A stretch of 46,418 nt of DNA from Actinomycetes bacterium. GTDB taxonomy: Bacteria; Actinomycetota; Acidimicrobiia; Acidimicrobiales; RAAP-2. The first letter of the stretch is position 1; each line of letters starts with the position of its first letter. Below are positions 4,745-40,342 of this stretch, piece after piece. The stretch covers positions 1 through 46,418 of the forward strand of contig JAJYVT010000020.1 of the NCBI GenBank assembly GCA_021791845.1, written 5' to 3'. Below the pieces are notes generated by a model. The model saw only the letters and a program-made list of their open reading frames with translations. It did not search any database and was not told where the DNA came from. The translations under genes and the position numbers were made by a program.

Positions 4745-4840
4745 GGAGGTGTCCAGGCGCCTGGTGGGCCTCCCCGCCTTCAAAGCGGGTGGGACGGGTA
4801 GACCCCGTCCGGCGGGTTCGATTCCCGTCCACCTCCGCCA
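4745..4840 (+). tRNA. selC: tRNA-Sec (anticodon UCA)
   Basis: The 96-base gene includes an encoded CCA end (4838-4840). Acceptor stem GGAGGTG (4745-4751) pairs with CACCTCC (4830-4836), followed by a G discriminator. The eighth acceptor pair expected for bacterial tRNA-Sec would be T-C here, a mismatch. The anticodon arm CCCGC-CTTCAAA-GCGGG puts TCA at 4780-4782. A long variable arm (GGACGGG with CCCGTCC) and a T arm GCGGG-TTCGATT-CCCGT follow. These features and the position after selA-selB-selD identify it. The 3' half of an antisense GNAT gene overlaps bases 4780-4840. Confidence 0.95.
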
Positions 4841-24959: not shown

Positions 24960-26126
24960 ATGGACGGAGCGTCACGGCACGCGGCGGCGGAGCTGACGGA
25001 GCACCTCGAGGCCCTGCCCCTCGTCGACCACCACGTCCACGGCGCTACCCGGGGCGAGCTGACGAGCGAGAGCTTCGAGGCGATGATCACCGAGTCGGAC
25101 CGGAGCCGGCGCCCGGGCCAGTCGTCGTTCGACAGCCAGCTCGGCTTCGCCCTGCGGCGTTGGTGCGCGCCGGCGCTGGACCTCGAGCCCGATGCCCGCC
25201 CCTCGAGCTACCTGGCCCGCCGGCGCGACCTCGGCGCCGAGGAGGTGAACCGCAGGCTCCTCCGGGCGTCGGGGGCCGCCACCTTCCTCGTCGACACGGG
25301 CTTCGCCACCGCCGGGTTGCTCACGCCGGACCAGATGGCCAGCGTCGCAGGTGCACGGGCGAGGGAGATCGTCCGGCTCGAGGCGGTGGCCGAGGAGGTG
25401 GCCGCCGCCGGTCCGGACGCCGCCGCCTACGCCGCCGCCTTCGAGGACCGGCTCGCCGCCCGGTTGTCGGCCGGGGCGGTCGGCACCAAGAGCATCGTCG
25501 CCTACCGCCACGGCCTGGACCTGGAGCCGACCCGGCCGGTCCCCTCCGAGGTGACGGCCGCCGCCGGTCGCTGGCTGCGGGCGGTCGAAACGGCGGGCAG
25601 CTCCCGGATCAGCGACCCCGTCCTGCTGCGCCACCTTCTGTGGGCGGGGATCGACGCCGGCCTGCCCCTTCAGATCCACACCGGCTTCGGCGACACCGAC
25701 CTGGACCTGCACCGCAGCAACCCCGTGCTCCTGTCGGGCTTCCTCCGGCTGGCCGAGCCGTGGGGGACGCCGGTGGTGCTGCTCCACTGCTACCCGTACC
25801 ACCGGGAGGCCGGGTACCTGGCCCAGATGTACCCCAACGTGTTCTTCGACGTGGGGGAGGCGGTGAACTACCTCGGCGCGCAATCGGTCCAGCTGGTGGC
25901 CGAGTCCTTGGAGCTGGGCCCCTTCGGCAAGCAGCTGTACTCCTCCGACGCGTGGGGCCCGGCCGAGCTGCACTACCTGGGGGCGCGGCTGTGGCGGACG
26001 GCCATGGCCCGGGTGCTCGGGCGCTACGTGGCCGACGGCGACTGGAGCCTGGCGGAGGCGAAGCGGGTCGCCTCGATGATCGGGGCGGACAACGCGACCG
26101 CCCTGTACGACCTGCCCACGTCGTGA
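24960..26126 (+). CDS. Amidohydrolase-family protein (Amidohydro_2)
   Basis: The product (388 aa) is a TIM-barrel metal-dependent hydrolase. The N-terminal metal site LPLVDHHVHG is clear, followed by QIHTGFGDTDLDLH, VVLLHCYPYHREAGYLAQMY and the C-terminal LYSSDAWGPAE aspartate. The pattern (HCYPY, followed by NVFFDVGEA) resembles the FluG / glutamine-synthetase-associated amidohydrolases. Substrate is not known. A GGGGG-rich ribosome site precedes the ATG at 24960. The aldolase gene follows after 32 bases. Confidence 0.88.
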   Translation: MDGASRHAAAELTEHLEALPLVDHHVHGATRGELTSESFEAMITESDRSRRPGQSSFDSQLGFALRRWCAPALDLEPDARPSSYLARRRDLGAEEVNRRLLRASGAATFLVDTGFATAGLLTPDQMASVAGARAREIVRLEAVAEEVAAAGPDAAAYAAAFEDRLAARLSAGAVGTKSIVAYRHGLDLEPTRPVPSEVTAAAGRWLRAVETAGSSRISDPVLLRHLLWAGIDAGLPLQIHTGFGDTDLDLHRSNPVLLSGFLRLAEPWGTPVVLLHCYPYHREAGYLAQMYPNVFFDVGEAVNYLGAQSVQLVAESLELGPFGKQLYSSDAWGPAELHYLGARLWRTAMARVLGRYVADGDWSLAEAKRVASMIGADNATALYDLPTS

Positions 26127-26158
26127 TCGACGAGGCGGCCGCCTGACACACTGGGCCG

Positions 26159-26884
26159 GTGCCCGGGACGGAGGAAGGGGGTCCGAGCGACCGGAGCGAC
26201 CGGCGCGTGAGTGATCGGGCGCCACGGGGTGCCCGTGCCGGCGCGCTCGACACCGCCAGGGCGGAGCTGGTCGCCTACGGCCGGCGGATGGCGGGCGAGG
26301 GGCTGGCGTTCGGCACGGCCGGCAACCTGAGCGTCCGGGTCGGTGACGTGGTGGCGATCACGCCCTCGGGCATGCCCTACGACATGGTGGCGCCCGAGGA
26401 CGTCTGCATCGTCGACCTGGACGGCGCCAAGCGCGCCGGGCGGGGGGCGGTCTCCTCGGAGTGGCCCATGCACCGGGCCGTGTACGCCACGACGGACGCC
26501 GCCGCCGTGGTCCACACCCACTCGCCCGAGGTGGTGGCCCTGTCGACGTCCTGCGCCGAGCTGCCCGCCGTCCACTACGCCATCGTCGGGCTGGGCGGCC
26601 CGGTGCGGGTGGCCGGCTACACCCGCTTCGGGTCCGACCGCCTGGCCGAGCAGGCGTCGGCGGCGCTGGCCGGCCGCACGGCGGCGATCCTCCAGAACCA
26701 CGGCGCCGTCACGTACGGGACGACCCTGGCCGAGGCCTACGAGCGGGCCGGGTTGCTCGAGTGGCTGGCGGGCACCTACCGCCGCGCCCGCCAGCACGGG
26801 GTGCCGCGGATCCTCACGACAGACGAGCTCGACGACGTGCGGGCCGAGATGCGCCGGCTCCGCTACGGCGGCCGGGTGTCGTAG
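26159..26884 (+). CDS. Class II aldolase/adducin-family protein
   Basis: The product (241 aa) matches L-fuculose-phosphate aldolase-like enzymes: FGTAGNLSVRVGDVVAITPS, PEDVCIVDLDG, SEWPMHRAVY, the zinc histidines in VVHTHSPEVVALS, and AAILQNHGAVTYG. The family splits or epimerises sugar phosphates. GTG at 26159 is taken as start; a GTG at 26207 with GGAG ten bases upstream is an alternative that removes a charged 16-residue leader. It is probably co-transcribed with the amidohydrolase and may act on sugar-derived compounds sensed by the RpiR protein. Confidence 0.86.
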   Translation: MPGTEEGGPSDRSDRRVSDRAPRGARAGALDTARAELVAYGRRMAGEGLAFGTAGNLSVRVGDVVAITPSGMPYDMVAPEDVCIVDLDGAKRAGRGAVSSEWPMHRAVYATTDAAAVVHTHSPEVVALSTSCAELPAVHYAIVGLGGPVRVAGYTRFGSDRLAEQASAALAGRTAAILQNHGAVTYGTTLAEAYERAGLLEWLAGTYRRARQHGVPRILTTDELDDVRAEMRRLRYGGRVS

Positions 26885-26893
26885 TAACGGTCC

Positions 26894-26932
26894 CCACGCG
26901 CCGGCCGCCGGTACGCGGCGGTCGGCGCGTGG
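26894..26932. terminator. Strong bidirectional terminator hairpin
   Basis: Arm 26894-26909 (CCACGCGCCGGCCGCC) pairs with 26917-26932 over 16 pairs, one a G-T wobble, around a seven-base loop. It sits between the aldolase gene and the end of the leftward DUF2786 gene and marks the left edge of the 26956-38090 island. Confidence 0.75.
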
Positions 26933-26955
26933 ACGACGGAACGCCCCGGCCCGAA

Positions 26956-28275
26956 TCAGGCGAGTGCGTCGGCCAGCTCCGGCTGGTAGGTGAGCGTGGC
27001 CAGGTCGGCCGCCGCCGTGCCTGCCACCCATCCCTCGTAGTCGTTCGCCGACGACCGGTGGCTGACGGTTGTCGGGAACAGCTCGGCAACCACGTCGTCT
27101 GCCGCCGACGATCGGGAGGCGAGCACCGGGAGCAACCCACTGCCGTGCACCGCCGCGGCTGCCGAGACGGCCTCCTGTTGGGTGGCCCGGAGACGCTGGC
27201 CGATGCGAGCCGCAAAGGCGACGAGGAACGTCCGGCGGAAGACCCGGGTCCGCGACCGCCCGAAGCGGTCGGTCTTGCGGCCCGCGGCCGTCATCTGCGT
27301 GGTGGCCTGGACCAGGAGCGAGGTGAAGAGGATCTCCACCGTCTCGACGTCGTCGTCGTGGCCCACGAGCGTGGCCAACCCCAGCTCCTCGTCCATCACC
27401 GACCGGCACCGGTTGGCCTGGCACACCACGTGGAGCAGATGCGCCTTGGCCATGATGTAGGGCTCGTCGATCCACAGCCGCCGCACCGCCGCCTGGGCTT
27501 CTTGCCGGGGCGCAGTCATCTGCAGGGCTGCGCTGTCGATGCTGTAGCGCGATAGCAGTTCCTGCGCCTTGGCGGTGCACGCATCGGCCTCGTCGGCGAA
27601 CGTGGTGGACTCGGCCTTGGACAAGAGATGCCGGACTTTCTCGAGGATGCGGGCGTCGGGCGCCGCGCCGCCGCCGGGCGCTGAGCGCGTCGTCCGGCGA
27701 GCCGGCAGTGCGGGGAGGTGCATGAGCACGCTGAGGGCGGCGATTCCTGCCTCCACGTCGGAATGCCATGACGGCCGGGCCGGGTCCGGTCGCCACTGCC
27801 CGGGGCCGGCCTCCGTCAGGGCCGCGGCTTCACTGGGCCACTCAGGATCGCGCCCGGTGTCGCGGCTGGCGCGATGCTCGGATCGCCAGAGGGAGCGCAC
27901 TGCGGTGGCGACGACCTCCTCGGCCTCAGTCCCGCCCTTCCGGCGGGCCTGGCGGGCCAACTCGCTCGGCAGCCACTGCGCCTCTGCCAGCTCGCGGACG
28001 CAGTGCTCGGCCGCTTCGCCGAGTGCCCGAGCCACCATCCGGGGGCCGGCCTTGAACGGCGGCCCTGCCGCGAGCGCCTCCACCAGCTCCGCCGCGTTCG
28101 GGCGGCGATGGAAGCGGGCCTCCGCCGCAACCCGGACCATCAGGGCGACCGAGAGCCCCCCGGCGAGGGCGTCCCAGGTGCTCTGCTGGGCCCGCCCGCC
28201 GGAGCGGGAGGCCCGCTCCTCGCGCCGGTGCTGGATCTTCTTCTGCTGCCGTCGTTGTCGGCTGCGCACACCCAT
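26956..28275 (-). CDS. DUF2786 domain protein
   Basis: The product (439 aa) carries the DUF2786 motif at about 210-250: ILEKVRHLLSKAESTT and EADACTAKAQELLSRYSID. The N-terminus is very basic (MGVRSRQRRQQKKIQHRREE), which suggests nucleic-acid binding. The remaining C-terminal half is predicted helical and ends with SANDYEGWVAGTAAADLATL. DUF2786 proteins are often phage- or defence-linked, but their function is unknown. The ATG at 28275 has no clear ribosome site; an in-frame ATG at 28392 is possible. It is the last gene of the leftward island, 142 bases after the helicase. Confidence 0.82.
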   Translation of the reverse strand: MGVRSRQRRQQKKIQHRREERASRSGGRAQQSTWDALAGGLSVALMVRVAAEARFHRRPNAAELVEALAAGPPFKAGPRMVARALGEAAEHCVRELAEAQWLPSELARQARRKGGTEAEEVVATAVRSLWRSEHRASRDTGRDPEWPSEAAALTEAGPGQWRPDPARPSWHSDVEAGIAALSVLMHLPALPARRTTRSAPGGGAAPDARILEKVRHLLSKAESTTFADEADACTAKAQELLSRYSIDSAALQMTAPRQEAQAAVRRLWIDEPYIMAKAHLLHVVCQANRCRSVMDEELGLATLVGHDDDVETVEILFTSLLVQATTQMTAAGRKTDRFGRSRTRVFRRTFLVAFAARIGQRLRATQQEAVSAAAAVHGSGLLPVLASRSSAADDVVAELFPTTVSHRSSANDYEGWVAGTAAADLATLTYQPELADALA

Positions 28276-28417
28276 GGAGCGATCGTCGCGCGATGTCGTG
28301 ACGCCGGCGCGGATGGTGCGTCTTCCATCGGCCGGCGGCTCTGGGACCTGGTGCTTTCGGCCTCCGTCCAGCGCGCCGCTAGCGATGGCCACGCCGTCGC
28401 AGGAGCGGGGGCCCGCA

Positions 28418-30064
28418 TCACGCCCCCAAGCGGAGCGACGCCGCGACGAGGTCGGGACGACTGGCGACGGTGGCCGCGTCGAGCAGGGTCACGGCCTCGG
28501 CGACGTCCACGACCTCTCCCAAGAAGGCCTCGTGGGCACCGGTTCGGGGGTCCTCGACGGTGCCCTCCACGAACACGATCGCGAACCGGGCCGACCTCCC
28601 GTCTGGCTTGCGGCGCAGCACGCGGCCCATGCGCTGGATCATCTGGCGCCGGGACCGACTGGCGCCGACGATGACCGCGACCTCAGCCGCCGGGACGTCG
28701 ATACCCTCGTCGAGCAGCCGGGGGGCGGTGAGGACCTGCACTTCCCCCGAGGCGAAGCGGTCCAGTGCCGCCCGCCGGGCGAGGGCGTCCAGACCGGAGT
28801 GGAGGGGCTCGACCGCCAAGCCGCAGGCATTGAGGATGATGGCCGCACGTTCGGCCGTGGCGATGCTCTGGGTGAAGACGATGGCGCGCTCGGCGCCGGA
28901 GAGCGCTGGCGCCATGGACGCAAGGCACCAGTCCTTGGCCGGCGTGTCGGCCAATAGTCGGCGCCGCTCGAGCATCGCCTGCCGGTAGGCGCGAGCCAAC
29001 CCGCTGCCAGGCGCCGACCCCTCCGCCAGCGCTCCCACCGCCCGAAGGAACGCCTCGAACGGCTCGTCCGGCACGCCGTAGGCACGGAGCAGGCGGCTCC
29101 TCAGCACGGTCATCCGCGCGCTCAGGTCATCGTAGAGCTCCTCCTCATCTGCGGAGAACCGCACGCCGGCGAGCGTGACGCAAAAAGGCGCCGTCACCCG
29201 GTCGGCGATCGCCCTCCGGTAGCCCAGGCGAAAGCAGGTGCCCCCGAAGTAGGGGTCGAGCCAGGCGATCGTCCCGTCGTCCTCCCGGGCGTAGGTGGCG
29301 CTCAGGCCGAGGCGGCTGGCGAAGCGCGAGTCGAGCGCCAGGCGGTTGACCGCGCTGCCGTAGCGGTGGCACTCGTCGGCCACGAGGAGCCCGCCGCGAC
29401 GGATGGGGCGGACGTCGAGGCTGCGGGCGCTGTTCACCACGGCGACCAGCACGTCGTGGCTCGCCAGGTTGTCGGCATGCCCGGCGCCCAGCCGGCCCAC
29501 CGCGTGCCGCCCACCCACCCATGCTCCGAGGTGGCCAACCCACTGGTGGAGGAGCTCCACCGTCGGCACCAGGACGAGCACCTGGCCGTGGCGCTCGAGC
29601 TCGCCGATGGTGGCCGCCACACCGACCATCGTCTTGCCGGCACCCGTCACCGCCTCGATCACCCCCCGCCGCCCCCGGGTCTCCCAGGCTCGGAGGGCGT
29701 CGGACTGCCAGGGGTACAGGCGTAGCGGGGTGCGGGCGGGAGCCCCGAGAGAACGAGGCCGCGGGGCGCAGGCGTCGGTCACGGCGCGCAGGGTCGGCGC
29801 GGCGGCTCGCAACGGTGTGTCCCCGTCCCGGTCCCCGCCCGGGCCGGCCGAGGCGAGCCACCAGCGCGGAGGCCGACCTCGGTCGCACCGGAACCGGCCA
29901 TGACCGGCGAAGAGCTGGCGGGTGACGTCATGCTCCGGCACGGCCAGGTGGTGGGCGAGCTCTGCCGCCGTCTGCCCTCCACCGGTGGCGAGCGCCGCCG
30001 CCAGGTCGTCGGTCAGCAGCTCAGCAGCCCTCGGCGCCGCCCGGATGATCGCCCGGGCGGCCAT
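28418..30064 (-). CDS. SF2 DEAD/DEAH-like helicase (SSL2/XPB type)
   Basis: The product (548 aa) has an N-terminal winged-helix-like segment (about 30-70), then a helicase core: WQSDALRAWETRGRRGVIEA, Walker A TGAGKT (140-145), VLVLVPTVELLHQW, DECH box (230-233), LSATYAR (motif III), and C-terminal QMIQRMGRVLRRKPDGR (motif VI). It resembles the short SSL2/COG1061 helicases that accompany BREX-type and other defence ATPases. It is much smaller than the Lhr-like BrxHI. The start is uncertain: ATG 30064 overlaps the upstream ATPase gene by 44 bases and ATG 30118 by more; neither has a good ribosome site. Confidence 0.88.
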   Translation of the reverse strand: MAARAIIRAAPRAAELLTDDLAAALATGGGQTAAELAHHLAVPEHDVTRQLFAGHGRFRCDRGRPPRWWLASAGPGGDRDGDTPLRAAAPTLRAVTDACAPRPRSLGAPARTPLRLYPWQSDALRAWETRGRRGVIEAVTGAGKTMVGVAATIGELERHGQVLVLVPTVELLHQWVGHLGAWVGGRHAVGRLGAGHADNLASHDVLVAVVNSARSLDVRPIRRGGLLVADECHRYGSAVNRLALDSRFASRLGLSATYAREDDGTIAWLDPYFGGTCFRLGYRRAIADRVTAPFCVTLAGVRFSADEEELYDDLSARMTVLRSRLLRAYGVPDEPFEAFLRAVGALAEGSAPGSGLARAYRQAMLERRRLLADTPAKDWCLASMAPALSGAERAIVFTQSIATAERAAIILNACGLAVEPLHSGLDALARRAALDRFASGEVQVLTAPRLLDEGIDVPAAEVAVIVGASRSRRQMIQRMGRVLRRKPDGRSARFAIVFVEGTVEDPRTGAHEAFLGEVVDVAEAVTLLDAATVASRPDLVAASLRLGA

Positions 30065-31337
30065 CGGCGTCGCCGTCGCGCTCGTCCTCCACCCCGGCCC
30101 CGGCGCCCCCCTCGGCATCCTCCATGCTGAGGTCGACGTGGAGGTCGGTGGTGGTCAGCACCGGGGAGTACGTCGGGTCGAGGCGGCGCAGGTCCCACTC
30201 ATTGATCCAGGCGCGCACGTACTGGCGCATCCGGTTGGACGGCAGTCGCTCGAGGCCCGCCACGTCGGGCGGCTCCCAGCCGTAGGCCTCGCCGTGGATC
30301 TGCTTGAGCTGGGCGTAGGTGCGGTCCAGCTCCTCTTGCCCCGGTGGCTGGAGCTGGACCTGCTCGCGTTCGATGATGCGCATCCCCGTCTCGGCTTGCG
30401 CTGCCAGCACCTCGTCGTCGGCCGTGCCCCGGACCCGCAGACGCTTGGGGATCAGCTCGACGTCGTTCTTGCCCACCAGGACCTGACCCTCGAAATCGTC
30501 GACGGTCGTGAGCACGGCGCACAGCGGGGCAGCCGGGTCGTCCCGGTCCCCGCGCACCCAGCGGGCGATCTCAGCGTAGGACTTGGCCCGCTGCAGGGCC
30601 GAGTACCGGCCGATGAGCTCGGCCTCATCGAGCAGGACGATCCAGCCAGCGTAGCCAGCCGCCTGGGCCAAGCGGCAGACGAAGCGGAACCGCTGGCGCG
30701 CCAGGTCCCGTTCCTTGATCGCCGCCAGCCGGTAGCCGGCCGCTGCTCCCGCCTCCCTGAGGCGGCGGCGCAGGTCGGCCACGGGGAGCGGGTCGCCGCC
30801 CCAGAAGCGCACGATCCGGTCGGCGAACTCCTCGTCGCCCCGGGCGTACTCGTGGAGGAACAACGTGGCGGCAAACCGACTGTCGACCGGGGCGCTCTCC
30901 TGGTGGGCCCATCGGTACAGCTCGGCGTAACGGGGCGCGTCGACGTCGAGGCCAGCGACGATCTCGTCGATGGCTGAGCCCGGTCGCCCGGGGACCTTGG
31001 CCAGCTCGATGGCGGCCCGGTACAACTTGACCGGGTCGTGGAGTGGCGTCTCCTTGGAGATGACCACCTTGGAGACGACGAACTGCTCCGACAGCGCGGT
31101 GTGCGCCAGGTGCTCGAGGACGTGGCTCTTCCCGGTGCCGAAGCCGCCCCCGATCAGCATCCCCCCTGCGGGTGGCCCCTCCGGAAGGGCGCGGGCGGCG
31201 GCGAGCAGTCCGCTGAAGCGGTCCTCCACACCCTGTTGCATCGAGCCCAGCGCCGCCACCGCGTCGCGGTTGGGGACGCCCGCCCGCAGCGCCTCGAGCG
31301 CCCGGCGGCGGTCGACCAATCCGGTCATGTCCCTCAT
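30021..31337 (-). CDS. BREX-type ATP-binding protein (BrxC/BrxD family, DUF2791)
   Basis: The product (438 aa) matches the BrxC_BrxD/DUF2791 P-loop family: RRRALEALRAGVPNRDAV, Walker A GGFGTGKS (64-71), the family-specific SKVVISKETPLHDPVKLYRA, and Walker B WIVLLDEAELIG (232-243). In type 2 BREX, BrxD is such an ATPase next to the helicase BrxHI. Here too a helicase follows, but PglX, PglZ and the other BREX proteins are absent. ATG 31337 overlaps the stop of the preceding gene by four bases; a second ATG at 31328 is possible. The last 30 residues are Gly/Asp-rich and overlap the helicase start. Confidence 0.9.
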   Translation of the reverse strand: MRDMTGLVDRRRALEALRAGVPNRDAVAALGSMQQGVEDRFSGLLAAARALPEGPPAGGMLIGGGFGTGKSHVLEHLAHTALSEQFVVSKVVISKETPLHDPVKLYRAAIELAKVPGRPGSAIDEIVAGLDVDAPRYAELYRWAHQESAPVDSRFAATLFLHEYARGDEEFADRIVRFWGGDPLPVADLRRRLREAGAAAGYRLAAIKERDLARQRFRFVCRLAQAAGYAGWIVLLDEAELIGRYSALQRAKSYAEIARWVRGDRDDPAAPLCAVLTTVDDFEGQVLVGKNDVELIPKRLRVRGTADDEVLAAQAETGMRIIEREQVQLQPPGQEELDRTYAQLKQIHGEAYGWEPPDVAGLERLPSNRMRQYVRAWINEWDLRRLDPTYSPVLTTTDLHVDLSMEDAEGGAGAGVEDERDGDADGRPGDHPGGAEGC

Positions 31338-32287
31338 GGCGCACCGAGCCGGACGAGCGACGACAGCGGGTTGTCGCGTGCCGCGTCCCGAACCTCGTCG
31401 AAGACGCGCAGCTTCAATGCCTGGTAGGCGTCGAGCCCCCGAACGGTGTCGGTCACGAATGCGGGCGACGTCACCACCGCCACCACGAGGTGGGACATCT
31501 CGTCGGTGTTGTCGACGAGCTGGCGGAGGACCTCGTAGGTGTCGAGGAGCGCAGCCTTGGTGTAGTAGTGGCCGTGCCGCTCCTCGGGGCTGGGCCGGCG
31601 GGCGAACCCCAGCCGGCGGATGTCGAGCACGAGGGCCAGCCCGGCACGGTCGTTGACGGCCAGCCAGTGCGCCAGGGAGAACAGGAGCTGTCGGGCGTTG
31701 TGACGCCCGATGCGGCGGAAGATGAGCGCCGAACGCAGGGCCGAGATCTGGCGCAAGTCCCCCCGCAGCCAGTCGACCACGGCCGCATGCTCGGCGTCGG
31801 AGACCTGCCCCGTGCGGAGCTGCGCCTGGCACAGCCGCAGCATCGCCGTGCGGAACTCGGCCACCATTGCGTAGTCCCGCTGCACCTGGGCCTGCAGCGC
31901 CCGGTCGAGGTCCCGCTTGAGCTCGCGCGGGTCCACGCCGTGGTGGGCAGCCAGTCGCTCGACGGATGGCCCCCCGTCCTCGGGCGCGGGGTACCCGGCG
32001 CTGGTGGCGGCCCGGGCCGCGGCAGACGTGGCCAGCCGGTCCCAGTCGACCTGGCGGGCGACGTCGAAGAAGACCTGCTCCAGCAGGTGCACGCGGGTCT
32101 CCGCGGCATCGACCGAGGCCACGGCGTACCTGGCGTCGGCAGCAGCGGCGGTGAACCGCGCGGTGAAGGCGCTGGCGGCCACCTCGTCTCCCGGCACCAC
32201 GAACTTGACCGCGGCGCCTCCGTTCGCCACGTAGTCGGCGAGGTACTCGCCGGCAAGGAAGGAGACGTAGTCCTCGACGCCGATCAT
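31334..32287 (-). CDS. BREX ATPase-associated protein, apparent P-loop-less partner
   Basis: The product (317 aa) begins IGVEDYVSFLAGEYLADYV and AVKFVVPGDEVAASAF, a strand that aligns in position with the P-loop strand of AAA-type ATPases but has no GxxGxGK[S/T]. Later blocks (ETRVHLLEQVFFDVARQVDW, RHNARQLLFSLAHWLAVND, GLALVLDIRRLG, LLDTYEVLRQLVDNTDEMS) look like a Walker-B-containing core and sensor region. I read it as a degenerate paralogue that pairs with the ATPase encoded next to it; this is inference. Four-base ATGA overlaps join it to both neighbours, so the three proteins are probably made in fixed ratio. Confidence 0.68.
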   Translation of the reverse strand: MIGVEDYVSFLAGEYLADYVANGGAAVKFVVPGDEVAASAFTARFTAAAADARYAVASVDAAETRVHLLEQVFFDVARQVDWDRLATSAAARAATSAGYPAPEDGGPSVERLAAHHGVDPRELKRDLDRALQAQVQRDYAMVAEFRTAMLRLCQAQLRTGQVSDAEHAAVVDWLRGDLRQISALRSALIFRRIGRHNARQLLFSLAHWLAVNDRAGLALVLDIRRLGFARRPSPEERHGHYYTKAALLDTYEVLRQLVDNTDEMSHLVVAVVTSPAFVTDTVRGLDAYQALKLRVFDEVRDAARDNPLSSLVRLGAP

Positions 32288-33072
32288 GTCACCGGATCGG
32301 CGAAGGTGATCCCGGCGTACACCTTCGTCTGGCCTGAGCGGGTCACCGTCGTGAGCACGGGTCCGCTGCGGGTCATTGCGCTGGCCGGCAGGCTCATTCG
32401 CCGGCCGTCCTTCACATCAACCACACCGCTCTGGTCGAGCAGGTACAGGTCCCGGGCGAGCTCCTGCCGGCTGTAGTCCCTGGCCGACCCCGGCAGGAGG
32501 GTGAGGACCCGGTGGACGTCGACGAGGCGGGCTGGAGCGCCCGGGCGGAGCCGCCGTGCCCCGGCTACGAGGTCGTAGGCGGCCGCCAACGCCTCGATGA
32601 ACGGCTCGGGCTTGAACTTCGGCGGGCGCTGCTGGAGCGCCGCAAGCTGGCCGACGAGGACGGACGGGCGCACCCGGCGCTCCTTCGTCTTGTCGACGAC
32701 CACGGTGGCGTCGCCCGCCGACACCTGGACGATGGCTGGATAGCTGAGGATGAGGTCGTCCGATTCGAACGCCTGAAGGCCAGCGTCGGCGGCACAGGCG
32801 AGCAGCTCCTTGGCGTACGCACCCGACGCGAAGTACGTACCGGCATCGAAGCGCCACCCGGCCCGGAGGTCCTGGGCGGCCGTTGCTGCCTGGTCGGCCA
32901 GGGCCGCCGTCGCCTCGAGCGCCTGCTGCAGGTCACGCAGCTGCCCGGAGGCCGCGGCCGCCTTGGCCCGCTTGGCTGAGCGTACGGCGGAGGCCAGGAT
33001 CCTGAGCGTCGCATCGGCGTCGCCCTCGATCGCGTCGAGGGCCGACTCGAGGGCGTTCGGGACGTCGGTCAT
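32284..33072 (-). CDS. Unrecognised protein: N-terminal coiled coil, C-terminal winged-helix-like
   Basis: The product is 262 aa. The first 85 residues are Ala/Lys/Gln-rich and helical (AKRAKAAAASGQLRDLQQAL), likely coiled coil. A middle block has ESDDLILSYPAIVQVSAGDA and VVVDKTKERRVRPSVLV. The C-terminal 75 residues (YSRQELARDLYLLDQSGVVD, then SGPVLTTVTRSGQ) could be a winged helix. No family is recognised. The ATG at 33072 has an ideal AAGGAG site five bases upstream and overlaps the preceding stop by four bases. Its fixed position in the ATPase/helicase operon suggests a DNA- or partner-binding subunit. Confidence 0.7.
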   Translation of the reverse strand: MTDVPNALESALDAIEGDADATLRILASAVRSAKRAKAAAASGQLRDLQQALEATAALADQAATAAQDLRAGWRFDAGTYFASGAYAKELLACAADAGLQAFESDDLILSYPAIVQVSAGDATVVVDKTKERRVRPSVLVGQLAALQQRPPKFKPEPFIEALAAAYDLVAGARRLRPGAPARLVDVHRVLTLLPGSARDYSRQELARDLYLLDQSGVVDVKDGRRMSLPASAMTRSGPVLTTVTRSGQTKVYAGITFADPVT

Positions 33073-34661
33073 CGCGCTCCTTGGGATGTTGTGCCGGTGA
33101 AGAGGATCTGGAGCTGCCCGGGCTCGGTTCCTGCCAGGCCGGCAGGCCTGGCAGCGCCCCGGAGCACCATAGCGTCCGGGGCGGGCGTCGAGAAGGGGCC
33201 GGGGCCTTCGTTCCCGGGGGGTGCGGTCCGGCCTCGCTTCGGGTGCGCGGCCTCCCGCACCTCGACCACCAGGTCCCCCGCGAGCGAGAACCAAAGCAGG
33301 AGCGTGTCGCCCGGCCGGGCGCCCGCGGCCCGGGCAACTGCGCGCAGGGAGCCCCGCTTCGGCCGCGGTCCGTCGGCGGCCAGGGTGACCGGACCCCACC
33401 GGCACGAGAACGTCCGACGACCGCCGGCGGCGATCCCGAGCCCGTCGACCAGCTCGGCAGGCACGACGGCCTCCTCTCCCCGCAGGACGGCATCGTCGAC
33501 CTTGACCCGGAGCCGCAGCTGCTCGGCGGTGGCCGGCGCGCTGTCGTGCCCGCCGACCCGAGGGGGAGCCGGGCGCGGCCCTCGATGCCCCTCTGTGGCC
33601 CTCGGCGGCCCGTGGCGACGGGCGGCCGTCGGTCGGTCGGCCGCGGCCCCAGCCGGCGTCGACGGCGCCGGTTCCTGCCCCGTCCGCCTTGCCGAGGCAC
33701 CCCGCGTGGGCTCGCCCCAGGCCGCCAGGCGGACGGCTCCGTCCTCGAGCGTCCGGAAGCGGCGACCACGGATGCAGGCGGCGAGCGTCGCCGCGTCCAC
33801 GGTGCGGCCACCGGACGCCAGGTCCTCGGCGAGCTCCGCCAGGCTCCGGGCCGTGCCGTGGGCGTCGAGCAGCCGCTCCACGGCATCTGGCAGTGGTCCG
33901 GCGGTTGCGACCACGAGGTCGTGGACAATGGCCGCCCCGAACGCATGGAGCCAGGGCACGAGCATCCCGGTGGCGATCTCGAGGTCGGCCAGCTCTCCGG
34001 TGAGATCACCGAGCCGACGGACGCCGCCGTCTGCGCGCACACACCGGGCCGAGTGGCCAAGGAGCGCCACCGGGTCGCGGGCGAGCCACCCGGGGTGGCC
34101 GCGCACCGAGCGGAACGGACCCGCCAGCCATGACGCAAGCAGCGCTGCCACCGAGCCCGGAGTGGCTCCGAGCCGCGCCAGCACGTCGCCGATGATGCCC
34201 TCGGTCGTGACGGCGCCGAGCCGGCGGCGGAGCTCGGTCACGAGCCACGGCCACGGCGGAGGCGCACCCGGGAGCACGGCCCGGATGCGGCGTCCGGCAC
34301 GCTGGGCGGCGTCGCCGACCGCGGGGGCGTTCATTCCGCGCTGGCGGCCGATGGCCTCGAGGGTGCGGCCTTCGCCGCCCCTCAGCACCTCCACGAACAG
34401 CGCCGACTGGTGGGGGCTCGGCGCCCCGAGCAGGAACTCCTGCCCTGGACCGAGGTCGGAGCCCCAGGGCGCGTGCCCATCGAGGAGCCTGGTCGCAGCG
34501 GCACGGGCCGCTCCCTCGCCAAAGCACCGGACGGCGAGCAGCGCCTCGAGAACGGGCCGCTCCGGCGCCGCACGCTCATGCCGCAGCAGGACGTCGATCT
34601 CCTGTTTGCTCCCGGTTGCCGCCCGCGGTGGCTTCGCCACGCCGGCAACCCTATCCAGCAC
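33069..34661 (-). CDS. Unrecognised protein with sigma-region-4-like HTH and C-terminal beta domain
   Basis: The product is 530 aa. Residues 98-130 (RTLEAIGRQRGMNAPAVGDA) resemble a sigma-factor region 4 or LuxR-like helix-turn-helix. A second HTH-like part lies at about 260-300 (SLAELAEDLASGGRTVDAATL). A Pro/Arg-rich linker (about 310-385) leads to a C-terminal beta domain ending RAVARAAGARPGDTLLLWFS. No full-length family is recognised. The start GTG 34661 is weak: the reading frame is open back to the TGA at 34718-34716 but has no other start codon. It overlaps the next gene by ATGA. Confidence 0.62.
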   Translation of the reverse strand: MLDRVAGVAKPPRAATGSKQEIDVLLRHERAAPERPVLEALLAVRCFGEGAARAAATRLLDGHAPWGSDLGPGQEFLLGAPSPHQSALFVEVLRGGEGRTLEAIGRQRGMNAPAVGDAAQRAGRRIRAVLPGAPPPWPWLVTELRRRLGAVTTEGIIGDVLARLGATPGSVAALLASWLAGPFRSVRGHPGWLARDPVALLGHSARCVRADGGVRRLGDLTGELADLEIATGMLVPWLHAFGAAIVHDLVVATAGPLPDAVERLLDAHGTARSLAELAEDLASGGRTVDAATLAACIRGRRFRTLEDGAVRLAAWGEPTRGASARRTGQEPAPSTPAGAAADRPTAARRHGPPRATEGHRGPRPAPPRVGGHDSAPATAEQLRLRVKVDDAVLRGEEAVVPAELVDGLGIAAGGRRTFSCRWGPVTLAADGPRPKRGSLRAVARAAGARPGDTLLLWFSLAGDLVVEVREAAHPKRGRTAPPGNEGPGPFSTPAPDAMVLRGAARPAGLAGTEPGQLQILFTGTTSQGAR

Positions 34662-35298
34662 GCCACGATCGAGGATCTCGATGTTGGCCCTGCGCCGGTT
34701 GTCGCTGCGCCTCGTTCAGGCCCCGTCCATTCCGAGCAGCGCCCGGAGCCGGCCCACGTCGTAGCCGCCCGGCCCCCCGGGGGATCGGGGTGCGCTCGTA
34801 CTCGTGCAAAATGGCGACGAGGTCCTCCCTGCGGGTGGGGTCGGCTGCCGCCTGACGGGGAGTCAGGTCGCCGAGGGCGGGGATCGGCTCGTCGAGCCAC
34901 CGTACCTCTCGGGCCCGCATGAGCTCGGCCAGTGCGGCGGCGGCGGGGGATGGAGGAACGAGGAGGTCAGAAGGTGCGGCCGCCTTGCCGAGGCGGCGAG
35001 ACGCCTCGGCAAGGCTCTCCCGTGCCTCCATGATCGGGGCCAGGCCGTCGACCGCAGCGACCACGATCGCCTTCAGGTGCTCGAAGCGGCGCTCGCTGTT
35101 GGCGAACGCCACCAGCGTTGTCCCGTCGATCGTCATGACGGACCGCACCAGCCGCTCGCCCTCCACCTCGAGCATCTCCGCCCAGCGCGCTCCTCCGTGA
35201 GGCTCCAGGACGACATCGAGGCACCGCGCCGACGCGACCGGGTCCTCGAGCTCGGAGGACGCGCTGCACAGCACCGTCGGTTCGCCCTCAGTGTTCAC
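34651..35298 (-). pseudogene. C-terminal fragment of a frameshifted SEC-C/DUF1841 gene
   Basis: This 215-codon frame begins at GTG 35298 and overlaps the stop of the larger SEC-C frame by 11 bases. Its sequence continues that protein: removing one G from the GGGG run (bases 35318-35321, C4 on the plus strand) joins the two frames as LGSGVKPPATVNTEGEPTVL. It then has VAFANSERRFEHLKA and a C-terminal block DEPIPALGDLTPRQAAADPT, an MbcA/ParS-like segment seen at the end of SEC-C proteins. A second shift follows in a C6G5 run (34773-34783): with one G fewer the frame reads PGGYDVGRLRALLGMDGA and stops at 34716, a natural-looking end. In the actual frame the last 35 residues are Arg/Gly-rich noise. 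Confidence 0.6.
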
Positions 35299-37720
35299 CG
35301 TGGCGGGCGGCTTGACGCCCCGAGCCCAGGATCTGGGCCAGCTGACGTGCGCCAGCCCCTTCGTCGAGCGCCTCCAGCAGCGGGTCGCGGAGGCGGAGGG
35401 GGATGCCGACGATCCCGCCCACGATCTGGTACCCGGTCCCGTCGAAGACGGGATGGGTCAAGAGCAGGTCGCCGGGCGTCACCGCCTTCGCCCCGTGGCG
35501 TTCGCGCACCGAAGTGACGTCCTCAGTACGGAGATCGCGCAGCGTGAGGCCTTCGCCTCGGACGGCATCGGTCACCTCAAAGACAGAGAGCGGCGCGAGT
35601 GCCCATTGGCTCACGAGGTCCGCCTCGTCTGCCGGCAGGATCGCCCCCCGCTGGCTCAGGAATGACTGGACTGCGCCGTCACCGAAGAGGACGAGGGAGG
35701 CGGCGATGTCCATGTCGACGGCCAGCGCCACGACGTCCTCGACGCGAGGGCGGCCGTGGAGCGCGAGGGCGACCTCGATCACTGTGGCGAAGGGGCCGAA
35801 GCGTTCGAGCCACCAGCGCAGCTTCTCCCAGACCCAGCGGGTACGTGTCGGCAGGGGCGTCGCCAGTGCCGTTCCCTCCCGGGCCAGGCAGCACAGCTTG
35901 TACTTCCGGCCTGAGCCGCACGGGCAAGGCGCGTTGCGACCGGCGCGGGGCACCGGCGGTCGTGCCACCGTGCGCAGGAGCGTGAGCCTCGAGTCCTCCC
36001 CCCGCGCGTCGGTGCGCTCGAGGAACCGGACCGCCGCGGCGGCGTCGCCGCGGTCGCTCGCATGCCAGGCGCAGTCCTCGAGGATCTGATCCAGCAGGTG
36101 GTCGCCCGGGTGGGCTGCGAGCGCGGCGCGTAGGCACGACTCGGCGGCCTCGGTGTCGCCCGCCCGCCCCGACACCAGCGACTCCACCCACAGGACGCCC
36201 GCCGTGTAGCGCCTTCCCGCGCTCCGGCGCAGGGTGCGCAGGACGGCTCGCACCGTCGCCACCTGGTCCACCGTCGCCTCGGCGAACGCCTCCGCCACCT
36301 CGGGCTCGGTGACCATGACGGCCAAAACCTCGGCCGCCTGGCGCGACAGGTCGCTGCCCCCACCACCTGCGCGCCCCGCCGCTTCTCCGAGGGAACGGAA
36401 CGCCTCCACCACGGTGAGCACGACCGCGGCCGTGGGGGAGTCGAGGCCCCGCCGAGCGCAGAGCCTGGCGATGCGCCGACGCTGGTCCAATGCACCCCAG
36501 TCGGCGCCCTGGGGTGCAGCATGCGCGTGGCGGGCTTCGAAACCGGCGCGCTGGAAGAGCTCGTCGAGCGGGGGAAGGATGCCGGCGACCATCGCGGAGG
36601 CGTCGAGAGCCATCTGGCACAACAGGTCGATGGACCGCACCGGCAGAGGCTCGCCCTGGCTCAGGAGCTCGAATCCCCTCGCCAAGCAGATGGCTGCCTC
36701 GGCGGAGGCCGGCGGGGCCGCATCGAGGCGCACCATCTCGAGCTCGGGGATCCAACCCACATCCTCGGGCACCTGGAACCCGACGACGTCGCCGGTTCGG
36801 AGGTCCGGCGGTGGCACCTTGAGAGTGACGCGGTCGCCGTCCAGCTCCTCTGCGTCGCTGCTTGGCTCGAGCTCGGCTCGGGTTCCTCCCGCCAGGTGGA
36901 GATGGCCGGCGCTGCAGAGGAACGCCTCGAGAGGCGCCAGGTCGGTCCCGAGGTCCAGGGACCCTCGAGCCGCCTCGTCGGTCGTCACCCGGTGGGTGAG
37001 CGCCGCGCCCCTGAGGGCCGCGAGGGCGGAGGCAACGCGGCCGTCGGCGACGACGGTCAGCGAGGGGTGCCCGATGACGAGGTCGAGATCCTCGACCTCG
37101 GTGCCCAGGAGCTCGGCGAGCGCTTCCTCGTCGAGGGGGCCACGTTCGGTGAGCACCTCGTGGGCGGCGACGAGGAGCTCCTCGTCGAATGTGTCGTCGC
37201 CTGTGTCGAGTGTGTCGTATGTGTCGTATGTGTCGTATGTGTCGTTCATGTCGGCGTCCGAGTTGTCGCTCGCAGGGACGCCGGGCCCTTCCTCCCAGGA
37301 ACCGGGCAGCGCGTCGAGCCGGTCCTGGCGGGCGTTCCGGTCGAGCACTGCCTGGCCGCGCCCTACCCGCCAGAGGTCCTCGGCGACCACGGTGCCGAGC
37401 ATGTGCAGCACCTCGTGGCGGTCGTACCCGAGGGCGCGCAGCCGGTTGGCAGTGGTCCCGACCGCCGAGGGGTCGCCTTCCCACAGCTGCGTGGCGACCA
37501 CCTCGTGGATCATGAGATGGAGCCGCGGACCCGAGGGGTCATCCCGGAGGTCGAGCGCACCGTCTCCCGGCCCCGTCGCCTCGTGGAGGTCAGGGTGGTC
37601 GGCCCGGATGAGTGCGGCACGATCGGCGGCATCCCCCGGATCCAAGAGGCCGAGATCCTCCCCATGCCATGTCCCATGCGACGGCGGGAACAGCCACGCC
37701 CTCAGATCCTCCAGTGGCAT
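35288..37720 (-). CDS. DUF1841 / SEC-C zinc-motif protein (likely 5' part of a broken gene)
   Basis: The product is 810 aa. An N-terminal DUF1841-like block (about 68-120) contains LHLMIHEVVATQLWEGDP and LGYDRHEVLHMLGTVVAEDL. A low-complexity Asp-Thr-Tyr stretch follows near 160, then a long helical, TPR-like region, and the SEC-C zinc motif RNAPCPCGSGRKYKLCC at about 594-611. After it, a conserved region (WWLERFGPFATVIEVALALH to LRDPLLEALDEGAGARQLAQ) is cut by a stop. The ATG at 37720 has GGGAG five bases upstream. It heads the leftward island. SEC-C proteins bind zinc and are often chaperone- or phage-defence-linked. If the two frameshifts are corrected, the full gene is 34716-37720, exactly 1001 codons. 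Confidence 0.8.
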   Translation of the reverse strand: MPLEDLRAWLFPPSHGTWHGEDLGLLDPGDAADRAALIRADHPDLHEATGPGDGALDLRDDPSGPRLHLMIHEVVATQLWEGDPSAVGTTANRLRALGYDRHEVLHMLGTVVAEDLWRVGRGQAVLDRNARQDRLDALPGSWEEGPGVPASDNSDADMNDTYDTYDTYDTLDTGDDTFDEELLVAAHEVLTERGPLDEEALAELLGTEVEDLDLVIGHPSLTVVADGRVASALAALRGAALTHRVTTDEAARGSLDLGTDLAPLEAFLCSAGHLHLAGGTRAELEPSSDAEELDGDRVTLKVPPPDLRTGDVVGFQVPEDVGWIPELEMVRLDAAPPASAEAAICLARGFELLSQGEPLPVRSIDLLCQMALDASAMVAGILPPLDELFQRAGFEARHAHAAPQGADWGALDQRRRIARLCARRGLDSPTAAVVLTVVEAFRSLGEAAGRAGGGGSDLSRQAAEVLAVMVTEPEVAEAFAEATVDQVATVRAVLRTLRRSAGRRYTAGVLWVESLVSGRAGDTEAAESCLRAALAAHPGDHLLDQILEDCAWHASDRGDAAAAVRFLERTDARGEDSRLTLLRTVARPPVPRAGRNAPCPCGSGRKYKLCCLAREGTALATPLPTRTRWVWEKLRWWLERFGPFATVIEVALALHGRPRVEDVVALAVDMDIAASLVLFGDGAVQSFLSQRGAILPADEADLVSQWALAPLSVFEVTDAVRGEGLTLRDLRTEDVTSVRERHGAKAVTPGDLLLTHPVFDGTGYQIVGGIVGIPLRLRDPLLEALDEGAGARQLAQILGSGRQAARHGEH
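37203..37247 (-). repeat. 9-bp tandem repeat (Asp-Thr-Tyr codons)
   Basis: Five units of GTGTCG[T/A][A/T/G][T/C] on the plus strand run head to tail; three are exactly GTGTCGTAT. In the SEC-C gene they encode repeated Asp-Thr-Tyr. Copy-number change would preserve the frame. Confidence 0.85.
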
Positions 37721-38222
37721 CGTGCTCCCTTCGCTCCGGCGGGCACGTACGCCGGACCCGCTTCGAACCTATAGCTCTTGCCGGCACGGGACAGGCTTGC
37801 CTGCCAGGTCGCACCCCCACGCACGCCCACAGGGAAGCCCGCGGTTTGCATCCCGATGCACTCCCGATGCCTTCTGCCATGGCCCCATCTCCCGCCGGGC
37901 GCCCGCGCCTGGCGCGTCAGCTCCCGCTCTCGGCGACTCAGGGGTCCATCACCGCGACACCGGTACGCTTCAAGTCGTCGATGGCGCGCGTGGCGAGGGT
38001 CGGACCGTGCGCTCGTGAGATAGCGGCACGTTCGCATCGACACCGGATCGGGCCACCGGCGCGCTTACGCTCCGAGACGACGGTCCCGCAGTGGACGGCC
38101 GCGGCCGCGGCGAACGGGAGGATCCACGTCGCGAACGAGCCAACACGTCATCGGCGATGACGTGGAGCCGATCGCGACACTGGCCGGCAGGTGGGAAGTC
38201 GATGCCCCGGCGGGTCCCCGCC
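37721..38222. other. Non-coding region upstream of the island, with a toxin remnant
   Basis: The 502 bases hold the likely promoter of the SEC-C-led operon, near the CTATAG at about 37770. They also hold the PIN-toxin remnant and the 3' side of the NCS1 permease gene. Open frames on the plus strand (37612-38160) have no protein character. No tRNA is visible. Confidence 0.45.
37938..38090 (-). pseudogene. Remnant of a VapC-like PIN-domain toxin gene
   Basis: Ending at the TGA at 37940-37938, the leftward frame reads AAISRAHGPTLATRAIDDLK, then RTGVAVMDP and stop. This matches the C-terminal end of VapC toxins, whose usual form is A-x-A-HG-TL-TRN--DF-GTGV-V-DPW. Directly upstream in the same frame is GTVVSERKRAGGP, like the VapC N-terminus (DTNVVSEL-). 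The middle, with the catalytic acids, is missing. No intact start and no VapB antitoxin gene are seen. Confidence 0.45.
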
Positions 38223-39740
38223 TTACGCCGCGTCCGCCCCGGGCAGCCCGTTCCCGGCAGCCAGGAGCTGGTCCTGGCGGTCGGCCTGGCGCCGGACGGC
38301 ACCCCGGGCGAGGACGAGGTAGAGCAGCCCGGCCACCCCGATGCCCATGAAGACGCTGAAGTCCGCCCCGAACCCGTAGCTGTCCCGGGTGGCGTAGGTG
38401 ATCGGGTTGAGCCACTGGGGCAGGTGGAAGGTGGCGGCCAGGGCCGAGATGGCGGCGTACATGCCCACCAGCTGGGCGACCACCGCCGGCCAGAAGAACC
38501 CGCCGTTGCGGTAGTAGAGGCTGGTGCGTCCGGTCTTCTGCAGCTCCGACGGCACGTAGCGGAACCGCCGGAGGACCCAGTCCACGAGGAAGATGGCGAG
38601 CCACGGGGCGATCCAGACGATCACCACGTCCACGAAGTCCTTCAAGAACGTGGAGAAGGACGTGTCGAAGATGGCGAAGATGCTGAAGCCCAGCACGATC
38701 ACGCAGTCGATGACCACCGCCACGTACCGCTGCACCCGCACGCCCATGGCCTGGAGGGTCACGCCGGAGGAGTAGAGGTCCAGGCTGTTGATGGCGAACA
38801 GCTGCACGACGGAGAAGACGAGGAAGACCACGACGAACCAGGCGGGGATGGCGCTCTGGTGGGCGAAGGGCAGGAAGGCGTTGGCCGAGGTGCCCACCTT
38901 CGTCAAGAAGGTGCCGACCGCCGCCCCCAGGGTCATGACCAGGATCTCGGGCACGGCCGTCCCGAGGAACACCCAGCCCACGATGGAGCGCTTCCTCGTG
39001 CCGGGCGGGCAGTAGCGCGTGTAGTCGTTGCCGCACTCGGTCCATCCCAGCCCCGAGAGGGTGATGGTGAAGGCCAGGCCCTCCATGTAGGTCTGCCAGT
39101 CGGCCCCGTGGGCCACGCCGGTGGTGGTGGCGTGGGGGATGGCGAAGGCCAGGAGGACGGCAAAGAGGACGAGGAACGGGATCACCAGCACCCGCAGCGT
39201 CTTCACGATGGTCGCGTGGCCCAGGAAGGGGAGGACGCCCTGGATGATGACGGCGAGGAAGACGAACGCGATCTTGGCCGGGTCGCCGGGGGAGAACCCG
39301 GCCTTGATCGAGAGCACGAGGGCGGCGCCCACGATCAGGATGATCCCCTCCACCTCGAAGCCCAGCTGGGTGACCCAGTTGAAGAAGGCGATGCCCCTCG
39401 AGCCGTTCGGGCCGTAGCTGGCCCGGTTGATGGCGAAGACGGTGGTGCCGGTCTGCGGGGCTTGGAGGCTGGCGAGCCCCAGGAGGAAGTAGGAGAGGTT
39501 GCCGATGATGATGAGGGAGAGGGCCTGGGCGAAGGTGAACCCGAAGGTCATCAGGATCGCCCCGTAGATGAAGTACTCGATCTGGACGCTGGCCCCGGCC
39601 CACATGCCGGCCACGTCCCTCGGCGTCGCCCAGCGCTCCCGGAGGGGGATGTAGTCGACCCCGTGGGTCTCGACGTGGAACGCCTCGTCCGACTCGGGCA
39701 GATCCTGGTTGGGCGCGTTCTGTTCCACGACGGTCGTCAC
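38223..39740 (-). CDS. NCS1-family (cytosine/purine/allantoin-type) permease
   Basis: The product (505 aa) has about 12 membrane segments and NCS1 family traits: VDYIPLRERWATPRDVAGMW near the N-terminus, GASVQIEYFIYGAILMTFGF, INRASYGPNGSRGIAFFNW, WTECGNDYTRYCP in the middle, and IVWIAPWLAIFLVDWVLRR. The family imports nucleobases or hydantoins with sodium or protons. GTG 39740 is preferred, with GGAGGAACCAAGG just before it; the frame also opens at GTG 39776. No catabolic enzyme for a nucleobase lies beside it, so the substrate stays open. Confidence 0.9.
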   Translation of the reverse strand: MTTVVEQNAPNQDLPESDEAFHVETHGVDYIPLRERWATPRDVAGMWAGASVQIEYFIYGAILMTFGFTFAQALSLIIIGNLSYFLLGLASLQAPQTGTTVFAINRASYGPNGSRGIAFFNWVTQLGFEVEGIILIVGAALVLSIKAGFSPGDPAKIAFVFLAVIIQGVLPFLGHATIVKTLRVLVIPFLVLFAVLLAFAIPHATTTGVAHGADWQTYMEGLAFTITLSGLGWTECGNDYTRYCPPGTRKRSIVGWVFLGTAVPEILVMTLGAAVGTFLTKVGTSANAFLPFAHQSAIPAWFVVVFLVFSVVQLFAINSLDLYSSGVTLQAMGVRVQRYVAVVIDCVIVLGFSIFAIFDTSFSTFLKDFVDVVIVWIAPWLAIFLVDWVLRRFRYVPSELQKTGRTSLYYRNGGFFWPAVVAQLVGMYAAISALAATFHLPQWLNPITYATRDSYGFGADFSVFMGIGVAGLLYLVLARGAVRRQADRQDQLLAAGNGLPGADAA

Positions 39741-40342
39741 GTCCTTGGTTCCTCCCTCTCCGCTCGGGACGCCCACACGATGGAGGGTGGAAGGGCCCTC
39801 GTCAAGCGCGTTTCGTGAACGGTCTGTTTCGAGCGTGACAGGACGGCGAAATTCGCCCGAGCATCCACCACCCCCGTGATGGGTCTCGGTACTGTCGTAC
39901 CCGAACCCCTTCCCCTGGAGGTGACGCGGCGGCCCGCTCCGGACTTTCGGTCCGGGGCGGGCCGTGTCGCGTGTGGTCGCGTGGGGCGGCGGGGGAGCAG
40001 CGTAGGACCGGGTCCCCCTGTGGCGCTCCCTCTGCCCGAGAGGAGCGCGGCCGCCGGCACCCCCTCGACCTCCTGCTCACATCGAGGTGCCTACCCGTCC
40101 AGGCGCTTGCGACACCACGCAGTGATGGCCATACCCAGCCAACGGTGGCGGTCACGCCATGGGTGCCATGACGTGGGAGGGCAAGGTACGCTCTCGAAGG
40201 CGATGTCACAGGCTGTCCGTCGGGACGGTTGAACGAGACGTACGCCGGCTCGACCGCCGCCGCGCCGCCCGAAGCCCGGGGACGGGGTAGTGATCCGAGA
40301 GCAAGCAACAGACCAACGAGGCGAAAGCCAGGAGGAACTGAC
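39741..40342. other. Long divergent non-coding region
   Basis: The 602 bases hold the promoters of the NCS1 permease and of the CWB2 surface protein, a 15-bp stem-loop at 39930-39964, and an AGGAGG site (40330-40335) for the TTG start. A TACTGT hexamer inside GGTACTGTCGTACC (about 39888-39901) could be a -10 box on the plus strand. I see no credible gene. Confidence 0.5.
39930..39964 (+). promoter_or_regulatory. 15-bp stem-loop upstream of the CWB2 gene
   Basis: CGGCCCGCTCCGGAC pairs fully with 39950-39964, with one T-G wobble, around a TTTCG loop. It is 379 bases upstream of the TTG start. No gene ends nearby that it could terminate, so it may be an attenuator or part of an RNA leader. No T run follows. 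Confidence 0.45.

Follow-up and report, generated by a model that had tools for sequence, protein, structure and literature searches.

A five-gene actinobacterial operon encoding an active BrxD-like ATPase, its Walker-less paralogue and a helicase: a candidate DNA-surveillance module

In the type 2 bacteriophage exclusion system (BREX; Pgl), the gene for the ATPase BrxD, of the origin recognition complex (ORC)/Cdc6 type, lies beside that of a superfamily 2 (SF2) helicase, BrxHI. The main text of a survey of BREX and BREX-related systems (PMC12839542), in its passages on type 2 BREX, suggests that BrxD is a loader or activator of BrxHI and calls the role of this pairing there uncharacterised. 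The same text reports that BrxL begins with a sigma-like helix-turn-helix (HTH) and proposes a sensing role for Walker-less STAND/ORC-type proteins; Shango, the B3 domain and PF10923 do not appear in it. For another system with an SF2 helicase, PbeABCD, viral DNA was reported not to be degraded (PMC6459918). Here we describe a five-gene operon with resemblances to these systems in a DNA stretch of 46,418 nucleotides (the window; contig JAJYVT010000020.1, positions 1 to 46,418) from an Actinomycetes bacterium of the order Acidimicrobiales, where an original prediction had placed an island with a candidate undescribed system at 26956-37720.

This island carries eight leftward open reading frames (ORFs), all on the minus strand; seven had been counted in the original prediction, the additional one being a 215-residue ORF at 34651-35298 between the SEC-C gene and the gene of 530 residues. 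The four-base overlaps announced at 33069-33072, 32284-32287 and 31334-31337 are all present. The island is real, but its boundaries are not those first proposed, as the conserved part is restricted to a five-gene operon at 28418-34661, with the following members:

33069-34661, minus strand: p530, predicted DNA reader with a sigma-region-4-like HTH, winged-helix-like units, a linker and a B3-like barrel
32284-33072, minus strand: p262, a coiled-coil hairpin followed by strand-rich and winged-helix-like parts, of no known family; putative adaptor
31334-32287, minus strand: p317, a dead paralogue from the BrxC/BrxD family that lacks Walker motifs; PF10923 E 2.6e-12
30021-31337, minus strand: BrxD-like ATPase of 438 residues with intact Walker A and Walker B; PF10923 E 4.3e-21
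28418-30118, minus strand: SF2 helicase, nearest to PbeA/XPB models, with Pfam ResIII and Helicase_C; start probably near 30064

The conservation of the operon as a unit was examined by running five core-family profiles on 31 loci, L016, L018 and L019 being left out as having contigs of the same lengths as L071, L069 and L068. In 27 of these 31 loci, p262, p317 and the ATPase directly follow one another in this order on a single strand, p262 being 5′ of p317 each time (the triad); the four loci lacking a full triad are either cut at a contig edge (L073 and L092) or contain only p262 fragments (L090 and L091). Downstream of the triad, a PbeA/XPB-like helicase was found in 20 of the 27 loci, some cut by contig ends, and an SNF2-type helicase in three, recognised through Pfam in L010 and through similarity in L088 and in a fragment in L089; in one more locus (L017) the contig ends at this point. 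The p530 gene lies upstream of the triad in 14 of the 27 loci, and is also present in L073. The expectation that the neighbours would stay with the ATPase in other genomes was thus borne out for the 262- and 317-residue proteins in all triad loci, and in part for the helicase and the 530-residue protein.

The five genes diverge in parallel. Distance correlations among p262, p317, ATPase and helicase ranged from 0.93 to 0.97 (19-26 loci), and those of p530 with the other four from 0.67 to 0.81; values as high were reached in none of 2000 permutations for each of the ten gene pairs. Since shared descent alone would give such values, they indicate joint inheritance and not contact. Mean identities over 13-15 shared loci were 36% for p530, 61% for p262, 67% for p317, 73% for the ATPase and 55% for the helicase, and the ratios of nonsynonymous to synonymous substitution rates (dN/dS) between the window and L016 were 0.35, 0.17, 0.15, 0.13 and 0.23, respectively, so that p530 is the fastest-changing core member. 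For correlations and identities, L020, L090, L091 and L092 were dropped, and partial proteins were used for contig-end loci (L017) and for the p262 of L085. The dN/dS values of 0.13-0.35 for the five genes, together with the recurrence of the triad order in 27 loci, argue that the island is not a product of chance. Broken frames were seen in the ATPase and helicase of L020 (5579-8270) and in the p262 of L085 (9465-10349), which may be decayed copies or assembly errors.

A midpoint-rooted tree of the triad from 26 loci separates a p530-bearing clade of 14, a clade of eight that lacks p530 and, in two cases, the helicase as well, the three SNF2 loci as a clade of their own, and L012. The helicase class is thus different in one clade, that of L010, L088 and L089. 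Since neither p530 nor the helicase is universal, the triad may be the engine of the system, with p530 and the helicase as variable tools.

The spread of the operon is patchy, over scattered actinobacterial genomes. Searches for p317 covered 61 relatives, 396 phylum-wide genomes and genome contigs. It was matched in two of the 61 relatives, the window's own genome counted, in none of 12 congeners (several of them incomplete), in five loci among the genome contigs, and in five of the 396 phylum genomes, namely the window's own, G101 and G137 (real relatives), G365 (a true Shango SngB) and G194 (a weak fragment). Of 397 genomes of the order, 26 matched the p262 profile, among them the window's own and two weak cases (G570 and G673); for the better assemblies alone the figure was 20 of 292. 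One of the triad loci, L017, lies on a 4.7-kb contig of a Dormibacterota metagenome-assembled genome, for which misbinning is possible.

The operon pairs a live ATPase with a dead one. The window ATPase contains the Walker A motif GGFGTGKS and the Walker B motif WIVLLDEAE, and both this protein (75.7 bits) and p317 (46.8 bits) are members of PF10923 (BrxC_BrxD), for which the Pfam cut-off is 22.2. In a search with regular expressions, the P-loop was found in 27 of 27 ATPases and in none of 27 p317 homologues; a DExx Walker B was found in 25 of 27 ATPases, the exceptions (L017 and L020) being incomplete ORFs, and again in none of the 27 p317 proteins. These results confirm the prediction of a Walker A/B ATPase of the BrxC/BrxD family next to a P-loop-less neighbour of similar layout.

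The helicase ORF as called begins with an ATG at 30118 and overlaps the ATPase end by 98 bases, but comparison with homologues places its true start probably later, for instance at 30064. It contains the motifs AVTGAGKT and DECH. Among PADLOC models its best score is with PbeA (E 2.9e-57, 192.7 bits), in comparison with 34 bits for BrxHI; among NCBIfam models it matches TIGR04095 (dnd_restrict_1; 141.8 bits against a cut-off of 600) and an XPB repair model (2e-23). Pfam detected no nuclease domain on this protein, PLD included. The nearest models are PbeA and dnd_restrict_1/XPB and not BrxHI, which does not support the ATPase-helicase core shared with BREX in the original prediction.

The structure model of p530 (mean predicted local distance difference test score, pLDDT, 73.5, disordered parts counted) displays a sigma-like HTH at about 81-133, three winged-helix-like units at about 134-315, a disordered linker and a C-terminal barrel at about 382-469. 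When the p530 family profile was compared with solved structures, sigma region 4 was recovered with a best E value of 1.3e-3, and 25 of the 26 listed chains were sigma factors; the window copy alone had no Pfam match, so that the predicted sigma-4-like character holds at the level of the family profile only. In a Foldseek search with the model, 24 of the 26 best rows were B3-type domains, with probabilities of 0.77-1.00 and E values of only 0.05-0.42. The assignment of these rows (plant ARF1, VRN1, FUS3 and VAL1, as well as BfiI and LlaJI.R1) to the B3 class is our own, and the order of strands and helices at 382-469 presumably fits the B3 fold. The rows give no residue ranges, and the barrel is therefore placed at 382-469 from strand order. 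Neither Pfam nor the family profile supports the B3 label at the sequence level.

The use of p530 as a marker of the operon was discarded: among 296 genomes, 17 others had a match, 13 of them in the sigma-like stretch only. In the two best p530 relatives (L111, 9431-10936, and L112, 434-2758), the profile match starts at the sigma-like HTH and extends as far as the C-terminal domain, and no other core gene lies beside them in the fetched stretches.

The model of p262 (pLDDT 88.3) contains a coiled-coil hairpin formed by helices 8-42 and 45-72; the winged-helix label of a further part was read from the order of secondary-structure elements only. The window copy had no Pfam, PADLOC or NCBIfam match, and no solved relative was found, no fold match in the PDB having an E value below 1. 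A SngA-like identity of p262 was tried and rejected (E 0.42). A role as adaptor may be proposed for this protein.

We put at about even the chances that the five genes encode a single nuclease-free DNA-surveillance complex directed against foreign DNA, made up of a reader, a live-dead AAA+ heteromer and a helicase. In such a complex, p530 would read or select DNA with the HTH of sigma type, the winged helices and the barrel of B3 type, and p262 would link it to an AAA+ heteromer in which the active BrxD-like ATPase is assembled with the dead p317, the latter possibly serving as a fixed or sensing subunit, as has been proposed for Walker-less partners in BREX. The use of ATP by this assembly would load or switch on the SF2 helicase, which would translocate along the bound foreign DNA and remodel it, with the putative outcome that replication or expression is blocked without any nuclease of the operon's own. 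More tentatively, and in our estimate with less than an even chance, the operon may represent a class of immunity or surveillance free of both nuclease and modification, in which the live/dead BrxD heteromer, guided by a fast-evolving reader, loads an SF2 helicase of interchangeable type on foreign DNA. It is part of this tentative extension that the same p262-p317-ATPase engine would work with helicases of the PbeA/XPB type in some clades and of the SNF2 type in others.

In favour of the surveillance complex are the retained triad order, the correlated distances, the live/dead split in all 27 triad loci, the fast divergence of the reader, the different helicase class in one clade, the patchy spread, a variable site in two congeners and the loader or activator role suggested for BrxD (PMC12839542). 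Several observations weigh against it. No effector domain was found by Pfam in the five core proteins. When p317 was set directly against the ATPase family by profile, only a weak match resulted (E 0.039), and their kinship therefore rests on PF10923. No helicase follows the triad in three of the 27 loci (L012, L083 and L084; in L084 a divergent DUF3670-SNF2 gene lies about 1.9 kb upstream of the triad), and p530 is missing from 13 of the 27, among them L080 and L083, whose contigs end within about 1 kb; neither gene is therefore essential to every version. Of 15 loci scanned individually with Pfam, 10 have a gene for metabolism or transport next to the operon (L003, L012, L016, L018, L019, L020, L083, L084, L086 and L087), and only one, L010, has a restriction gene. 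Of 205 neighbours, 139 were picked by distance and length, and 134 were scanned once the five longest had been dropped; as controls for PADLOC, 139 random proteins encoded by longer ORFs were drawn from 18 control stretches in these genomes. The neighbours matched 101 of 5027 PADLOC models and the controls 16, counts in which one protein matches many models, and the commonest models were those of SNF2 helicases, from four proteins (L010 and L088, where it fills the module slot, L072 and L084). Plasmid records and viral contigs gave no match for p317 or p262, and phage records none for p317, the only query used there; carriage of the operon by viruses, plasmids or phages was accordingly rejected for these queries. 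Finally, a nuclease-free outcome would have its precedent in the sparing of viral DNA by PbeABCD, which PMC10853773 disputes.

The strongest rival is a strain-specific complex for DNA repair or chromosome maintenance, in which the XPB-like helicase would open damaged DNA with the help of an ATPase-driven loader and no immunity role would exist. The match to the XPB repair model, the lack of a Pfam effector domain and the metabolic and transport genes in two thirds of the individually scanned neighbourhoods are consistent with it. On the contrary, a very patchy spread, a different helicase class in one clade and a fast-evolving reader would be unusual for repair genes, and we consider this explanation unlikely.

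A divergent BREX type 2 or Shango subtype, reduced to the ATPase-helicase core, appears distinctly improbable. Membership in PF10923, scores of 54.1 bits with the PADLOC model of BrxD and 25.8 bits with that of SngB, and the placing of a helicase next to a BrxD-like gene, which both systems share, speak for this kinship; but the score of the window ATPase with the NCBIfam equivalog of BrxD (NF033438) was 56.6 bits against a cut-off of 350, true SngB in L014 reached 582.4 bits, the helicase scored best with PbeA models and not with BrxHI or SngC, and p262 has no similarity to SngA. SngA, of the TerB type, had no match in the island, and the match to SngC was weak (E 4.7e-4). As a control, a true Shango locus with SngA, SngB and SngC was recovered elsewhere in the phylum (L014, 4460-11689). 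The possibility of a hidden BREX elsewhere in the genome of the window (G000, 90.8% complete) was also rejected: it has no PF10923 gene, such as one for BrxC/PglY, besides the two of the window, and neither PglZ (PF08665; matched in two of 14 control genomes) nor an Eco57I-type methyltransferase (PF07669; matched in 11 of 14) was detected. PglX is presumably covered by PF07669, and the absence of PglX and PglZ noted in the original prediction would then extend to the genome as recovered. No PglW-like domain was found in the eight island proteins, to which that search was limited.

ORC/Cdc6-type ATPases load helicases. A replication or target-selection module of an integrative element, in which an ORC/TniB-like ATPase pair and an adaptor would load the helicase onto an origin or site that p530 recognises, could draw on that activity, on its proposal for BrxD (PMC12839542) and on the phage integrase domains and IS605 transposases present in two neighbours each out of 134, but it is very unlikely, because, scattered families aside, the loci have no further gene in common next to the operon, so that no conserved recombinase or relaxase is seen, and p317 had no plasmid or phage match and p262 no plasmid match.

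Besides the integrase and IS605 proteins, the 134 neighbours included five PIN and two Fic proteins among the 25 listed of 134 Pfam families, and no DNA methylase family was among those 25. In the complete genome of L010 (9474-19901), the SNF2 version of the operon is accompanied by a type IV restriction enzyme, which carries PLD and helicase domains, and by a Fic gene, and a Fic homologue was also found near the operon in L077.

The remaining features of the island and its surroundings are the following:

34651-35298, minus strand: p215, outside the core, partner of the SEC-C gene; PF09722 E 0.0053
35288-37720, minus strand: SEC-C protein, outside the core, in a separate SEC-C/p215 cassette; SEC-C E 4e-9
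26956-28392, minus strand: DUF2786/DUF7168 protein, directly downstream of the core and not conserved with it; PF10979 E 1.9e-13, PF23771 E 1.4e-8
26114-39521: 13.4-kb segment missing at the syntenic site of the congener G003
40229-43087: large protein with CWB2 cell-wall-binding repeats, adjoining the variable site
4745-4840: gene for a selenocysteine tRNA with a tca anticodon, close to the contig's left end

Pfam supported the DUF2786 and SEC-C identities given in the original prediction, but not the assignment of these proteins to the system. DUF2786 had no match in any other fetched core locus (E 1e-3), and SEC-C with p215 occurred in just one, L080; for this lack of co-conservation, SEC-C, p215 and DUF2786 were rejected as core members. 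The SEC-C gene followed by that of p215 was also found on contigs of congeners (G002 and G006) devoid of any core gene, which indicates that the pair is a separate two-gene cassette, adjoining the operon in two loci. This cassette (34651-37720 in the window; L027, L028 and L080, where p215 adjoins SEC-C homologues) recurs in several genomes of the order. SEC-C was matched in 7 of 13 genomes of the genus, the window's own and motif-only matches counted, and the motif was present in one of 205 neighbours and none of 194 control proteins. The end of p215 weakly resembles the C-terminal antitoxin domain of Xre/MbcA/ParS (PF09722; 17.2 bits, below the cut-off of 24.5), so the pair could be toxin-antitoxin-like.

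The segment at 26114-39521 is a variable site in two congeners. In G003, homology with the window ends at 26113 and starts again at 39522, two points that are separated by only some 180 bases in L131, and in G011 it ends at 26114, with none of the segment found on its 6.3-kb contig. A 102-base piece, 93% identical to the 5′ part of the permease gene, is left in G003. Because of this remnant, an insertion with clean, defined ends was rejected, and loss in G003 is as possible as gain in the window.

Scans of the island proteins with PADLOC and NCBIfam named no system, in agreement with the idea of an undescribed set, and a few word searches of the open-access literature (subscription papers and bioRxiv lying outside their scope) found no description of the five genes together. 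By model scores and gene content, the operon belongs to none of BREX type 2, Shango and Pbe. Its helicase core is nearest to PbeA of the PbeABCD/CxC-DndE system, but it lacks the PLD nuclease domain and falls below the TIGR04095 cut-off, and neither PbeC (SMC-like) nor Dnd had a match in the island. With Shango (SngABC) it shares a BrxD-like ATPase, an SF2 helicase and one further protein. The predicted fold of the p530 C-terminus resembles the B3 readers of restriction enzymes (the C-terminal domain of BfiI and the N-terminal domain of LlaJI.R1), a likeness by fold only (E 0.05-0.23), and no nuclease domain was found in the operon.

There are also parallels with BREX. A similar division of labour is seen in BrxA-BrxB-BrxC, described in the survey as a multi-HTH binder, a Walker-less ORC-type BrxB and an active ORC-type ATPase (PMC12839542), although p262 and p317 have no similarity to BrxA or BrxB models at the PADLOC threshold used, and BrxC has 1200-1300 residues in comparison with 438 for the operon ATPase. 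With type 2 BREX the operon shares the adjacent BrxD-like ATPase and SF2 helicase genes; its helicase is PbeA/XPB-like where BrxHI is Ski2-like, and it has, according to the models, an extra dead ATPase, an adaptor and a B3-type reader. The operon is the BrxD-helicase pairing in a minimal and self-contained form. Its five genes, with no methylase or nuclease as far as Pfam shows, would make the BrxD loader hypothesis directly testable, and they add a clear dead/live ATPase pair, kept in all 27 triad loci, in a candidate defence setting.

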